From: Methylocapsa sp. S129
GTDB taxonomy: Bacteria > Pseudomonadota > Alphaproteobacteria > Rhizobiales > Beijerinckiaceae
DNA: 64,000 bases
Reading direction: 5' to 3'
Assembly: GCF_009765995.1 (NCBI RefSeq)
Contig: NZ_LMUI01000020.1
Location: 124,001 to 188,000 of the forward strand
Of this stretch, positions 43,279-58,242 are shown in pieces. The notes below the pieces were generated by a model. It was not told the origin of the DNA. It searched no databases and was given only the letters and a program-made list of their open reading frames with translations. Made by a program: the position numbers and the translations under genes. Position 1 is the first letter of the stretch. Every line of letters starts with the position of its first letter.

Positions 43279-43354
<76 letters not shown>

Positions 43355-43380
43355 TCGAAATCAAGGACTTATCAAAATTC

Positions 43381-53082: not shown

Positions 53083-53110
53083 CGGATAGAACAAATACGG
53101 AACATGCCAA
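53083..53110 (-). promoter_or_regulatory. SOS (LexA) box within the R-M operon promoter, shared with imuA remnant
   Basis: GAAC-AAATACG-GAAC at 53089-53103 is a perfect alphaproteobacterial LexA box (GTTC-N7-GTTC on the other strand). Read leftward, it fills the 16-bp spacer between TTGGCA (53110-53105) and TATCCG (53088-53083), a plausible -35/-10 pair for the R-M operon whose first ATG is at 53056. It also lies 36 bp before the ATG of the decayed imuA gene, a classical LexA target. Confidence 0.65.
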
Positions 53111-53597: not shown

Positions 53598-54944
53598 CTA
53601 GGGCGTCGTAGGCTCGGACCGTGCTTTAACCCAAGTCAGAAATGCGCCTATGTCATCCTTAGGAGCCGTCGTGTCCGCGTATATCGCCAGCTCTAATGCT
53701 GCCCGCCGAATGACAGCGATCGCGAATTCCTCCATTCCACTCCGACTCAGCGCAAGCCGTGTGTTCAGGGTGGACCATGTGCCGTGGAGGATGCGTGAGC
53801 GATCCCCGACTATACCGCGCGCGAACTGCTTGGCCGTCGTCGCCGTCTCGCTCGTGACAGTATCGTCTGGGTTCAAACCGTAGAAGGTCGCAAGGATCGC
53901 TTCCATCCGGGCTTGGCTTCCCGAGGCGTTTTCCGCGCGCAGCAAGACCTCCAAAGCCGTCTCGAGCTTCGCCATCGCGATGGCGTCAATGGCCTCCACC
54001 AGGGCTTCGTGGAGCCAATAGGCGGCGTCGCACCATGCCCGCTCCAAATCAGGGAGCCGAAACTGGCCGGTCGCGAACGACACGACACAGCGCCCAGCCG
54101 CGGCGATCGTCGGAGCCGTCTTTTGGAGGATGTCAGTCAGTGTCCCCGTTCCGATCGAAACTCCCGCCTCCCTCTTGGACCAGCCGGCGTTGTAATAGCC
54201 GTCCGATTCTGAAAGGGTCCGTCGTTCGGCCGCGCCGCGCCGGGCATCAAGGCGGCCCATCGTTCGCGTTCCCCATGCCAGGGGTATAGAAAGCTGGAGC
54301 GCGACGATGGCCAGGTCGGCAGCGAGGGCACCGATCTCTTCGGCCCGCTCGTGCTCACATCCCTCGACGGATACGCACGCGAGCCAGTTCGCCCGATTAT
54401 CCCTCATCAGCCCCAGCATTCTGTCAAAGCCGTCGCGGCCAAGCACATCCCCCGCGGGCGGGTAGAACTCGCTCCGTGCAGCTTCATCGACGTGAACGAA
54501 GATGGCAGGCCCGATCGAAAATCGAGGGGCGGCCCACGGCGAGATCACGCATGGAACGAAAACCCGACGCCGCGCGGCGAGCTGTCTGAACCACCTGTCG
54601 AAGTGGGTATGGAGAGACGCCACGTCGTCAACGCCGATCGAGCTTGGATCACGGCCTGTGTAGACCGCAAGGGTCTTCAGCAACTCGGTACGGACGTTTG
54701 CAAAGATCGTCCCGCGCTCCATCGCCGGGGATCGTTTGACGAGGGACTCCGAAAGATCAGTGAAGGCATCGCCGGCCGCCTGCCGGATCACGATCAACTT
54801 CTCACCGTCGAGCCGCGCCAGCGCAATTCGCTCGTTGCGCAAGAACTCTTGGGTAATTTGGTGAGACGGCACTGCAGGCCGTATCTCCACCCCTTGGGCA
54901 AGCGAGCGAAGCACCCCGATCTCTCTTCCGTAGCGTGAGGCCAC
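53598..54944 (-). CDS. Uncharacterised protein with a possible ApeA-like HEPN C-terminus
   Basis: This 448-aa protein begins at GTG 54944, which has a near-perfect AAGGAGG ribosome binding site 5 nt upstream. The C-terminal part is all-helical (ERAWCDAAYWLHEALVEAIDAIAMAKLETALEVLL), and its GDRSRILHGTW contains an R-x4-H (Arg382, His387) as in HEPN ribonucleases. The overall layout recalls Apea-like HEPN proteins. The N-terminal 200 residues are not recognised. It is downstream of the CBASS genes in the same direction, 142 bp away, and may be a separate defence effector. Confidence 0.6.
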   Translation of the reverse strand: MASRYGREIGVLRSLAQGVEIRPAVPSHQITQEFLRNERIALARLDGEKLIVIRQAAGDAFTDLSESLVKRSPAMERGTIFANVRTELLKTLAVYTGRDPSSIGVDDVASLHTHFDRWFRQLAARRRVFVPCVISPWAAPRFSIGPAIFVHVDEAARSEFYPPAGDVLGRDGFDRMLGLMRDNRANWLACVSVEGCEHERAEEIGALAADLAIVALQLSIPLAWGTRTMGRLDARRGAAERRTLSESDGYYNAGWSKREAGVSIGTGTLTDILQKTAPTIAAAGRCVVSFATGQFRLPDLERAWCDAAYWLHEALVEAIDAIAMAKLETALEVLLRAENASGSQARMEAILATFYGLNPDDTVTSETATTAKQFARGIVGDRSRILHGTWSTLNTRLALSRSGMEEFAIAVIRRAALELAIYADTTAPKDDIGAFLTWVKARSEPTTP

Positions 54945-55086: not shown

Positions 55087-55974
55087 TCAGCTCTCCCAGT
55101 ATTTCTTCAGCGCTGCTGTGAAGCTGTTGAAATTCGCGACCGACCAGCAAGTCGGCGAACTGTCGCGCACGAGCCAGTGCATGTGGTTCGCGCACACGAG
55201 CTTGTCGCGATCGGCCGTGACGATATGGTTGAAACAGTTGATCCAAGTCTGCTGGTAGGTGCCCCCAAACTGGTCGTCCGGCACGTTGTAGAGCATGCCC
55301 TCGATGAAGTACGAGGGTGCCCCTCCGCCCTGTAGCAGCCCCTTTCCGGTCATCGTGTTCCGCATGTTCTTGAAGATGCGGACCATCGGCTTGAAGTAGC
55401 TTTTCGTGCTTTGATGTTTCGTCGTGCAGTTGTCGGAATGCAGCTTTGGGAAATTTTCGATCATCGGGTCGCCCGGGGGGAAGAAACATACCCCTTCGTC
55501 GTAGCGCTGGGTCTGCCAGGACTTGAACTCGTAGTAGCGCCGGAACCGGGACGCGATCAGAACGTCCGCGTTCCTGCGCCCGGAATTGCCTCCCGGGATA
55601 TAGAGCGCCTTTTTTCCGGCGTTCACGTTATTGTAAAGCCGCGTCACATAAGCGGTCGCGTCGCGCTTGAAGTCGGTGTAACCGTACGTCACGGTGCCGC
55701 CCGCCACGGCGTCATACGCGCGCCGATCCTCCGGCGAAAGCCGGCTCAGATCCTTGTAGAAGGCGCCGGTGTGGCAGAGGACAATGTCGACGTCGCTGTC
55801 GCCGTAGACGTTCGAGTCGTTCTTGTAGGAACCCTGGAGGAAGACTTCCGTATCGGCGAGCGGATAGGGCGCGCCGCTGTCGAGCAGGTTGCCGCGGATG
55901 CGATTGTAGGTGTCCGTGAACTGGGACGTCGGCCCCTGGGACGCCCAGATGTCGAGCTGGCTTTCGGCTATCAC
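55087..55974 (-). CDS. CBASS CD-NTase (cyclic oligonucleotide synthase)
   Basis: The 295-aa protein is a DncV/OAS-like nucleotidyltransferase. The signature GS-x(10)-DxD is present: Gly48-Ser49 in FLQGSYKND, with Asp61 and Asp63 in YGDSDVDIVL; the third acidic residue is Asp137 in RRNADVLIA. The C-terminal helical domain contains KPMVRIFKNMRN and SYFIEGMLYNVPDDQF. The GTG start at 55974 follows GAGGAG by 6 nt; a longer in-frame start would overlap the phospholipase gene. Upon phage infection such enzymes make a cyclic di- or trinucleotide that activates the neighbouring effector. Confidence 0.9.
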   Translation of the reverse strand: MIAESQLDIWASQGPTSQFTDTYNRIRGNLLDSGAPYPLADTEVFLQGSYKNDSNVYGDSDVDIVLCHTGAFYKDLSRLSPEDRRAYDAVAGGTVTYGYTDFKRDATAYVTRLYNNVNAGKKALYIPGGNSGRRNADVLIASRFRRYYEFKSWQTQRYDEGVCFFPPGDPMIENFPKLHSDNCTTKHQSTKSYFKPMVRIFKNMRNTMTGKGLLQGGGAPSYFIEGMLYNVPDDQFGGTYQQTWINCFNHIVTADRDKLVCANHMHWLVRDSSPTCWSVANFNSFTAALKKYWES

Positions 55975-55984
55975 TTGCGACTCC

Positions 55985-56926
55985 TCAGGCAAGAAACTTC
56001 CGCAACTCAGCTTCCGCGTCCCGCGCGCAGTCGCGCCCGCGCAGCCAGAGCAGGCCAAGTTTCTCCAGGTCGACCTCGAGCATGTCCGTCGCCATGTCCG
56101 GCTGCGTATACCTGGCGTGGATGCGGACGGTCTCGACCTCTCGGAACAGCACCTTGCGCAACTGGTCCATCGACTGCGAGCTGATTTCCATCGTCTTCTG
56201 GAGGAACACCATGGTGGGCAATTTGCTTGCCCACTTCCGAAGGCTCCAGGCCGGCAGCTTCGGTGTCGGGTACTCGCCCACGCCGATGCTCACCACGCGA
56301 ACATCCTTCCGGGCGGCGCCGAGCGATTCAGTCGCGTCCGCGATGGCATAGAGCGTCGGGTTGTTCGCGACGAAGCCCCCGTCGCGCACCTCGATTTTCT
56401 CGCCGCGGCTCGTGGACACGAACTTCTTCTTGAAGAAGGGATAGGCCGAGCAAGACCCGACGACGGCGTCCGCGATGGTGCAGCCGAAGCCGGGCTCGAA
56501 GGTCGCGTTTCCGAAGAAGGCCTGCCTGCGGTTCGTCTTGAAAATGATGGGCCGCTCTTCTTTCCATCGCGTCCCGACGATGCCCATATCCGTCTTGAAC
56601 GCGTCGAATTTCAACGCCCCGAACACCTCCGAGGCGAGCGTTTCCAGCGCGGCCGTCTTTTGGCTCGGAAGCCAGCGCGCCATGACCGTCACCACCCGCT
56701 TCCGGTAGAGCGCCTCGACTTCATCCACGGATTTCCCAAGCCCAAGCAGCGCGGCGATGATGGCGCCGGTCGATGTCCCGTAGATGAGATCGAACTTCTC
56801 GTAGAGCCGGCATTCGGCGAGCGCCTCAATCTCCTTCAGCGCGCCAAGGGTGTAGAAACCCTTCGCCCCGCCGCCATCAAGGCTTAGGACCCGAAAAAGC
56901 TTCGCCGTCGGAATATCGTCTGACAT
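55985..56926 (-). CDS. CBASS patatin-like phospholipase effector (CapV-like)
   Basis: The 313-aa patatin-fold protein has the oxyanion loop SLDGGGAKGFYTLG (Gly18-Gly20), the nucleophile Ser52 in YGTSTGAI and the dyad Asp182 in RDGGFVANNP. Patatin phospholipases paired with a CD-NTase form type I CBASS, in which cyclic nucleotide binding triggers membrane phospholipid hydrolysis and abortive infection. The CD-NTase gene starts 10 bp later. No Cap2/Cap3 or HORMA/TRIP13 genes are present, so this is the minimal two-gene form. It begins only 5 bp after the frameshifted SRAP gene. Confidence 0.92.
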   Translation of the reverse strand: MSDDIPTAKLFRVLSLDGGGAKGFYTLGALKEIEALAECRLYEKFDLIYGTSTGAIIAALLGLGKSVDEVEALYRKRVVTVMARWLPSQKTAALETLASEVFGALKFDAFKTDMGIVGTRWKEERPIIFKTNRRQAFFGNATFEPGFGCTIADAVVGSCSAYPFFKKKFVSTSRGEKIEVRDGGFVANNPTLYAIADATESLGAARKDVRVVSIGVGEYPTPKLPAWSLRKWASKLPTMVFLQKTMEISSQSMDQLRKVLFREVETVRIHARYTQPDMATDMLEVDLEKLGLLWLRGRDCARDAEAELRKFLA

Positions 56927-56931
56927 TGCGG

Positions 56932-57520
56932 TTATCCGACCCGTTCAACCGATAAGGTGCCCTCCGGCATCGACTTCAAAATAGATTTTGATGAAACCGA
57001 AGGGTCGAGCCAGGCGGCCCAATCCGAGCGGTTGAGTATCGCGATCTGCCGATCATGATACGGGGCGATGTCGGGCCCAGGTTCGATGGTGAGCATTGTG
57101 AAGGCCTCGCCGATATCCTTGTTGGCACGCCAAACCCCGGCGATGGAGAACCGGGGGCTCGCCCTTTTTGGTGAACAGCCATTTGTCCTTCCGCTTCTTC
57201 TTGTCCGGTGGATCGGTGAATTCGTAGAAGCCGTCGGCGATAATCAGGCACCGGCCCGATGTGAATTCGCGCCCGTCTGAGCGGAAATTGTAGACTGGCT
57301 TGCCGTTTTGCCCGGGCCAGCTCCAGCGCCGCTGGACAAGATCGCCCGCGTCCGGCTCGCCCTCAACCGTTCGCACGATCGGCGCGATATCGGTGATCTT
57401 GATATCGTGCCGCGCCTGGATGTTCGCCGTGCCCTCGGAGAAGCGGATCTTGATCTTGAGGTCCGCGAAATCCTTAAAGATCGCCGCCGCCTCCACCTCC
57501 AATCGATAGTCGTTGCACAT
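56932..57520 (-). pseudogene. SRAP (YedK/HMCES-like) gene with a frameshift
   Basis: The start MCNDYRLEVEAAAIF has the catalytic Cys2 that cross-links to abasic sites in ssDNA. GRCLIIADGFYEFTDP contains the active-site Glu. Near 57146-57152 the frame is lost: the first frame degenerates after KKGEPPV, while another frame continues AGVWRANKDIGEAFTML, PGPDIAPYHDRQIAIL and ends at 56932. The change equals one extra or two missing bases. Joined, the protein would be about 196 aa, a normal SRAP length. The stop is 5 bp before capV, so translation or transcription coupling to CBASS is likely. Confidence 0.85.
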
Positions 57521-57558
57521 GCAGGTCTCCGAACAGCGGACGGTTGCATCTGACTGTA

Positions 57559-57573
57559 GTTCTTATTATGTTC
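57559..57573. promoter_or_regulatory. SOS (LexA) box between the divergent SRAP genes
   Basis: GTTC-TTATTAT-GTTC is a perfect GTTC-N7-GTTC alphaproteobacterial LexA site. It lies 39 bp upstream of the SRAP/CBASS operon start (57520) and overlaps the probable 5' end of the rightward SRAP paralogue. SRAP means SOS-response-associated peptidase, so a LexA site is expected here; its consequence for CBASS is the novel point. Confidence 0.65.
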
Positions 57574-58242
57574 TCCCCCGTGACCGCAACCCCATTCGAT
57601 CTGGACGCGCCTCTCGGTCAACGCCGCGCCATCATAAGGCGAGACGGAGAGGGCGTGGAAATGGTGGAGCTTTCCTGGGGCCTGCAGCCACGGGACGGCA
57701 ACGGCCGGCCCTTCACGGTGATCCGCGCCGAAGGTCGAAGCTTCCCGACGCATCGCTGTCTTGTTCCCCCGTCCGAGTTTCGAATGCGAATCCGGGGCCG
57801 CGGATACAGTTTCTCGCTCGCTGACGGCGATTGGTTCTACTTCGCCGGCATATGGCGGCCCGAGACACACGGCTCGTGCGAAGCTTATGCGATTCTCACG
57901 ATCGAGCCTGGCCCCGATGTCGCCCGATACCATGATCGGCAAATGGCGGTCTTGAGGCGTGCGCAGCGATTCGATTGGCTCGATGCAACGATTGCCGAGG
58001 GTGAGTTGCTGCGTCCCCTGCCGGCCGGGGAGCTTTCGCGTCAGAGAGGATCGGCGGCCGAACGTGCCGCAGGGGTCTATGGCGTTCTAGGACGCCTATC
58101 ACCGCTGCGGCTGCCAGCCCACACGCATTTCCTGAGAGTCGCGAATACGCCTTCGCGAAGCCGGATTGTGAAGGGGAATGCCTTCCCCCTGGCCGGCGCT
58201 TTGGTCGCCGGCACACCCCCTTCTGCGGGGACGCCCCCGTAA
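57568..58242 (+). CDS. SRAP-domain paralogue lacking the N-terminal catalytic Cys
   Basis: The 224-aa protein shows SRAP landmarks: VELSWGLQP, TVIRAEGRSFPTHRCLVPPSEF, DWFYFAGIWRP and AILTIEPGPDVARYHDRQMAVL. It starts MFSPVTAT instead of MCxR, so the Cys2 that forms the abasic-site adduct is absent, and the position of the first Glu differs. The ATG at 57568 overlaps a LexA box; GTG 57580 is an alternative start. The C-terminal 60 residues (after AGELSRQRG) are not SRAP-like and Pro/Gly-rich. It is divergent from the frameshifted SRAP gene. Confidence 0.7.
   Translation: MFSPVTATPFDLDAPLGQRRAIIRRDGEGVEMVELSWGLQPRDGNGRPFTVIRAEGRSFPTHRCLVPPSEFRMRIRGRGYSFSLADGDWFYFAGIWRPETHGSCEAYAILTIEPGPDVARYHDRQMAVLRRAQRFDWLDATIAEGELLRPLPAGELSRQRGSAAERAAGVYGVLGRLSPLRLPAHTHFLRVANTPSRSRIVKGNAFPLAGALVAGTPPSAGTPP

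Follow-up and report, generated by a model that had tools for sequence, protein, structure and literature searches.

Results

A CBASS gene pair behind a frame-broken SRAP gene

The window, a stretch of 64,000 nucleotides of Methylocapsa sp. S129 (assembly GCF_009765995.1, contig NZ_LMUI01000020.1, positions 124,001 to 188,000), carries the two genes of a cyclic oligonucleotide-based antiphage signaling system (CBASS) beside two divergent SRAP genes, here called SRAP1 and SRAP2, with a LexA-type box between the latter. A preliminary description of this DNA had proposed that one SRAP gene and the two CBASS genes form an operon placed under LexA by that box; SRAP2, which lies across the box from SRAP1, was absent from it. 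The features of the locus are, in window coordinates:

55087-55974, minus strand: CD-NTase, the CBASS cyclase, with a GTG start (PADLOC Cyclase, 5.3e-107; PDB 6e0k, 3.8e-46)
55985-56926, minus strand: patatin-like phospholipase, the CBASS effector (PADLOC phospholipase effector, 4.9e-144; PDB 9iom, 3.7e-101)
56932-57520, minus strand: SRAP1, a SRAP gene whose frame is broken into an N part (57053-57520) and a C part in a different frame (56932-57159)
57559-57573, plus strand: LexA-type box GTTCTTATTATGTTC, a perfect GTTC-N7-GTTC, in the 59-bp gap (57521-57579) between the divergent SRAP genes
57544-57572, plus strand: promoter-like element TTG-N20-TATGTT, pointing to SRAP2, in the direction opposite to CBASS; its spacer and -10 share bases with the box
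57580-58242, plus strand: SRAP2, a truncated SRAP gene with a GTG start (Pfam SRAP profile positions 92-201 only; also by alignment)
53598-54944, minus strand: gene of a 448-aa protein, directly 3' of the CD-NTase gene (no Pfam or PADLOC match; no counterpart in related loci L006-L010)

In a PDB search the best solved-structure match of the cyclase was 6e0k, of the CdnE type. That of the effector was the cUMP-AMP-activated phospholipase 9iom, of the CapE type, and it stood far above CapV. The effector stop is separated from the CD-NTase start by 10 nt, with GAGGAG just 5' of that start. The ancillary genes Cap2 and Cap3 were absent among the immediate neighbors, of which SRAP1 and the 448-aa protein were checked, and Pfam revealed no regulator gene of the CapW, CapH/CapP or CapK/CapS type among the same two. 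As described in passages of PMC9122588, type I CBASS comprises cyclase and effector proteins only. Judged by its matches, the pair in the window is of a known kind, an ordinary type I CBASS nearest to CdnE with a CapE-type effector, and its signal molecule is probably cUMP-AMP.

SRAP1 precedes the effector gene on the same strand, in the order SRAP, effector, CD-NTase first described, but its reading frame is interrupted. The frame opened by its ATG (57520) stops at 57053, 126 nt before the effector gene, and it is the stop of the C part, in a different frame, that lies 5 nt before the effector start. Both short spacings given earlier, 5 nt and 10 nt, are thus right; since translation from the ATG ends so far from the effector gene, however, coupling would be lost. 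The break was placed near 57150-57165. The Pfam SRAP profile covers the gene in two separate pieces (positions 1-128 in the N part and 129-207 in the C part), and a search of the organism's own genome likewise returned it as two overlapping pieces. Alignment places Cys2 and the glutamate of GFYEF in the N piece and the histidine of YHDRQ in the C piece, so that the active-site residues, with roles as in YedK, fall on both sides of the break.

A predicted LexA operator in the SRAP gap

GTTC-N7-GTTC is the LexA motif of the alphaproteobacteria, as stated in passages of PMC8565304. The genome has one LexA match, and boxes of this type lie upstream of lexA and recA. The perfect box first described between the SRAP genes is indeed present. 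We discarded a count of the string as a measure of its significance: the window holds two copies against 2.12 expected, and the genome 182 against 204 for the reversed control. As the string is not enriched, it is no evidence by itself, and the spacer and the conservation of the box carry the case.

Using a matrix built from 13 other boxes (those of lexA, recA, another SRAP gene of the same genome and ten SRAP pairs elsewhere), the box in the SRAP gap ranked second among 100 listed of the 182 boxes of the genome, a rank that partly measures shared descent because ten of these 13 are counterparts of it from elsewhere. Under an assumed base composition, a fraction of 6e-5 of random spacers scored as high. 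With the same matrix the lexA box itself was only 19th among the 100 listed boxes, 11 of which end in TATGTTC. The box between the SRAP genes is very probably a genuine LexA operator, as predicted from its spacer and its conservation.

The box is conserved with SRAP2

SRAP2 lacks, by alignment, the N-terminal part that holds Cys2, and is followed in the window by genes of the ArdC and ParB types. Loci containing a relative of SRAP2 were collected from 17 other places (L017-L023, L032-L035 and L088-L093). Seven came from scanning 397 genomes of the order, where they matched SRAP2 at E <= 1e-30 (hits in the own genome set aside), and ten were fetched from plasmid records, among the 60 listed of 202 records with a match. 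In three of the seven loci from the genome scan (L020, L022 and L023) one in-frame stop lies inside the matched SRAP2 stretch.

The box beside SRAP2 is kept in 15 of the 17 loci, and the element TTG-N20-TATGTT facing SRAP2 is present in the window and in exactly those 15; of the other own-genome boxes ending in TATGTTC, the three compared lack that TTG. Where the gap between the SRAP genes is long (308, 317 and 254 bp in L020, L034 and L035, respectively), the box stands beside SRAP2, with more than 200 bp between it and SRAP1; the remaining box-like matches in these gaps each carry two mismatches. Box and SRAP2-facing element also persist in the two loci with a broken SRAP1 (L032 and L093). 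In the window, the GTG of SRAP2 lies 7 nt past the -10 hexamer, and across 11 measured loci, of which the window is one, about 6-12 nt separate the -10 from the start codon; a start so near the -10 suggests that SRAP2 may be leaderless. The annotated or matched neighbors of the SRAP pair comprise dinB, imuA, imuB, dnaE2 and ligase genes, and neither CapE nor CdnE was found in the fetched flanks of any of the 17 loci. From these comparisons, the box seems to belong to the repair module of SRAP1 and SRAP2 rather than to CBASS.

The arrangement is recurrent in its own right: a full-length SRAP gene and a truncated one without the Cys2 region diverge from a single shared LexA-type operator, kept in 15 of the 17 loci. 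No relatives of SRAP1 were confirmed in viral contigs.

SRAP1 is full length and in a single frame in 14 of the 17 other loci. It is broken by a frame change in L032 and reduced to short end pieces in L093, both plasmid loci, and the stretch fetched for L089 showed no SRAP1. We considered whether the break in the window could be a sequencing or assembly error, which would leave an intact SRAP1 at the head of a normally translated SRAP1-CapE-CdnE operon and would be compatible with control of CBASS by the box as well as with its absence. Against five intact relatives the N piece shows 66-69% identity, and the C piece retains the family sequence, as expected for a miscalled base and also for a very recent break; the broken frame comes from a single assembly. 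That SRAP1 is broken or not found in three of the 17 loci (L032, L093 and L089) indicates, however, that its decay is not rare. On balance, an error of this kind seems a real possibility, but not the likelier origin of the break. We dropped a programmed frame change, since L032 breaks in the same region but with its parts in a different frame relation.

Upstream neighbors of related CBASS loci

Related phospholipase/CD-NTase pairs were found at 31 loci, 30 of which show the upstream side (L009 ends at a contig end). Thirteen were fetched from plasmid records, among the 40 listed of 50 records with the cyclase. About 540 bp upstream are visible in the seven loci L025-L031, the effector of L078 was matched in its later part only, and L007 and L010, with the same length, coordinates and identities, may be one sequence. 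A SRAP gene directly in front of the effector was found in none of the 30 loci by tblastn with the SRAP family of the window, a search that a very distant SRAP could escape. The adjacency, whose absence from related loci would by the preliminary description itself refute the proposal, is thus not conserved.

The annotated upstream neighbors differ among these relatives. The closest pair, in Bradyrhizobium (L006), is 82-84% identical, and its 1.98 kb of upstream sequence gave no SRAP match. A distant SRAP relative (22-28% identity) occurs in L076, divergent and about 1.2 kb from CBASS, and ParB genes lie near the CBASS of L007 and L010. A helix-turn-helix (HTH) gene immediately precedes the effector in L079, and HTH and ImmA/IrrE genes stand about 2 kb upstream in L080, with two other genes between. 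The phospholipase scan of viral contigs gave one relative, L082, without SRAP. No shared similarity upstream of the effector that would mark the edge of an insertion was found by eye in a comparison with five relatives.

Boxes in front of a CBASS phospholipase, and without a SRAP operon, occur at L031 (405-419 and 487-501) and L076 (about 2861-2875). Beyond the boxes of L031 starts a divergent gene in which an ImmA/IrrE-like HELGH motif was seen by eye; the first 125 residues of its product have no Pfam match.

The host element and its other boxes

The locus lies in a larger mobile element, with the following further features:

43309-43364, plus strand: left copy of a 56-bp direct repeat, at the 3' end of tRNA-Lys (43279-43354)
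G000:C27:269622-269677, outside the window: right copy of the repeat
53089-53103, minus strand: second window box GTTCCGTATTTGTTC, before ribbon-helix-helix, cytosine methylase, restriction-enzyme and Vsr genes
L087:5952-5966 (G000:C27:267952-267966): box GTTCTATTAATGTTC, about 25 nt before the gene of a 1074-aa protein

The 56-bp repeats at tRNA-Lys enclose an element of 102 kb that carries defense genes and repair genes of its own. The element holds six exact boxes, against one for a control pattern; they stand at the SRAP pair and the restriction operon and upstream of another SRAP gene, dinB and the gene of the 1074-aa protein, with the sixth at 140966. The two boxes first noted in the island, both said to head defense operons, are not the only ones once the whole element is considered; others stand at repair genes. 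Box GTTCCGTATTTGTTC ranks 16th among the 100 listed of 182, and 0.7% of random spacers are as good. The 1074-aa protein has no family match in Pfam (E <= 0.01) or PADLOC (E <= 0.001).

Discussion

We consider it probable that a known CBASS came by chance to lie behind a LexA-boxed repair module, and that the box serves the SRAP2 promoter. The 102-kb element at tRNA-Lys would have brought its own LexA-boxed repair genes, including the divergent SRAP pair, with the operator in the gap sitting inside the promoter of SRAP2. A mobile type I CapE-CdnE pair would have landed directly behind SRAP1, which either lost its frame or was misread in assembly. LexA on the operator would repress SRAP2, and upon DNA damage LexA would leave and SRAP2 be freed. 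The CBASS itself would work as usual: an infection cue would lead the cyclase to make a cyclic dinucleotide, probably cUMP-AMP, and this would switch on the membrane-degrading phospholipase. Any effect of the operator on CBASS would then be a by-product of position. The gene order is real and the operator probably so; the CBASS is a known one, and the decayed gene in front of it comes from a known kind of repair module. An attractive SRAP-CBASS arrangement appears to have been over-read, the box going with the SRAP1/SRAP2 module.

Several observations weigh against this interpretation. The box is missing in L022, where SRAP1 is intact, and in L089, which is uninformative on the gene that the box serves because SRAP1 was not found there either. 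The element facing SRAP2 is weak: in the window it matches the consensus at 7 of 12 positions and falls below the threshold of a strict promoter scan, so that the argument for a SRAP2 promoter is one from conservation. The best leftward match in the window, TTGACC-16-TCGAAT, reaches 9 of 12. At its threshold, the strict scan flagged no consensus promoter on either strand between 54,900 and 57,800, so that it proves neither direction and showed no separate promoter for CBASS. In so short a gap (59 bp), LexA bound to the box would probably impede a leftward start too, and CBASS could be damage-inducible without a conserved geometry. Moreover, two of 29 other CBASS loci carry exact boxes in the 250 nt upstream of the effector (two boxes in L031, one in L076). 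In this post hoc count, which leaves out L009 and L038 (the latter with an insertion sequence between effector and cyclase), the three boxes compare with 0.235 expected; at least three boxes arose in 0.2%, and at least two loci with a box in 2.15%, of 2000 simulations. Finally, on rhizobial plasmids, a damage-inducible mutagenesis gene and an ATP-dependent ligase gene (L074), or a SRAP gene and ligD (L076), lie less than 4 kb from CBASS, indicating that this CBASS type is sometimes found near repair genes.

Part of this evidence would fit capture of the CBASS into the SOS regulon of the element, which we regard as unlikely. LexA would then also block a leftward start, and damage would release a transcript of SRAP1, CapE and CdnE; the supply of cyclase and effector would thereby be replenished when phage or damage yields single-stranded DNA. 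The tight spacings of 5 and 10 nt agree with capture, as do the high-scoring box 39-53 nt upstream of the SRAP1 start, the lack of a separate CBASS promoter in the strict scan and the boxes near the effector in two of the 29 loci. The leftward 9/12 candidate is also suitably placed; it ends 73 nt before the SRAP1 start, within the 5' end of SRAP2, and would start transcription just upstream of the box. Passages of PMC13373217, furthermore, describe CBASS as made damage-inducible by other local regulators. However, translation of the broken SRAP1 stops 126 nt before the effector gene, the conserved promoter-like element points to SRAP2, and the SRAP adjacency is found at none of the 30 CBASS relatives. 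The leftward candidate, too, is unconserved, the best leftward matches in 11 other loci differing from it in sequence and place. It seems doubtful that the CBASS of the window is an SOS gene directly under LexA, rather than under CapW, CapH/CapP or CapK/CapS, with L031 and L076 as independent rewirings.

The proposal that a box in the SRAP promoter controls CBASS survives in part: the operator is very probable and read-through from the SRAP gene possible, but the conserved promoter faces SRAP2 and SRAP1 is broken. LexA control of this one CBASS is possible, if unlikely, and was not found conserved. A survey of CBASS loci, suggested at the outset, gave no SRAP gene directly in front of the effector in 30 loci, yet a box within 250 nt of it in two of 29; these boxes, counted post hoc, keep alive the idea that this CBASS type may sometimes be brought under LexA-type control. 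We reject a dedicated three-gene system, in which SRAP1 as an abasic-site shield would work with CapE and CdnE, as highly improbable: adjacency and shared strand speak for it in the window only, while SRAP1 is frame-broken, a SRAP gene directly in front is found at 0 of 30 CBASS relatives and CBASS at 0 of 17 SRAP2 loci (in the fetched flanks), and the SRAP pair, where annotated or matched, keeps company with dinB, imuA-imuB-dnaE2 or ligase genes.

Comparison with known systems

The CBASS of the window resembles CdnE-CapE type I systems in having a cyclase and an effector only, and differs in that the pair lies behind a broken SRAP gene. The SRAP pair resembles the SOS-associated SRAP and translesion modules in which, according to passages of PMC3765255, SRAP stands beside dinB, imuA-imuB-dnaE2 or ligase genes. 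Unlike these, SRAP1 of the window is broken and then followed by CBASS, and a divergent truncated SRAP2 is not mentioned in those passages. Such divergent SRAP genes, one full length and one truncated, around one LexA-type operator are a recurrent module worth study.

Linking the synthesis of CBASS to LexA had been presented as what would be a new layer of control. Control of CBASS transcription by DNA damage is, however, already known to act through CapW, CapH/CapP and CapK/CapS, as described in passages of PMC13373217 (for CapW, also of PMC9122588). Our literature searches for LexA with CBASS and for SRAP with CBASS returned, among the entries listed, no title or abstract opening on LexA control of CBASS. 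A damage-tied transcription of the CBASS in the window would be the same idea as in those systems. As the same passages describe them, CapW, CapH/CapP and CapK/CapS are dedicated regulators beside the immune operon, whereas the candidate in the window is a LexA-type box between SRAP genes. Should LexA induce CBASS here, direct LexA control would join the known routes by which damage raises the expression of immune genes.

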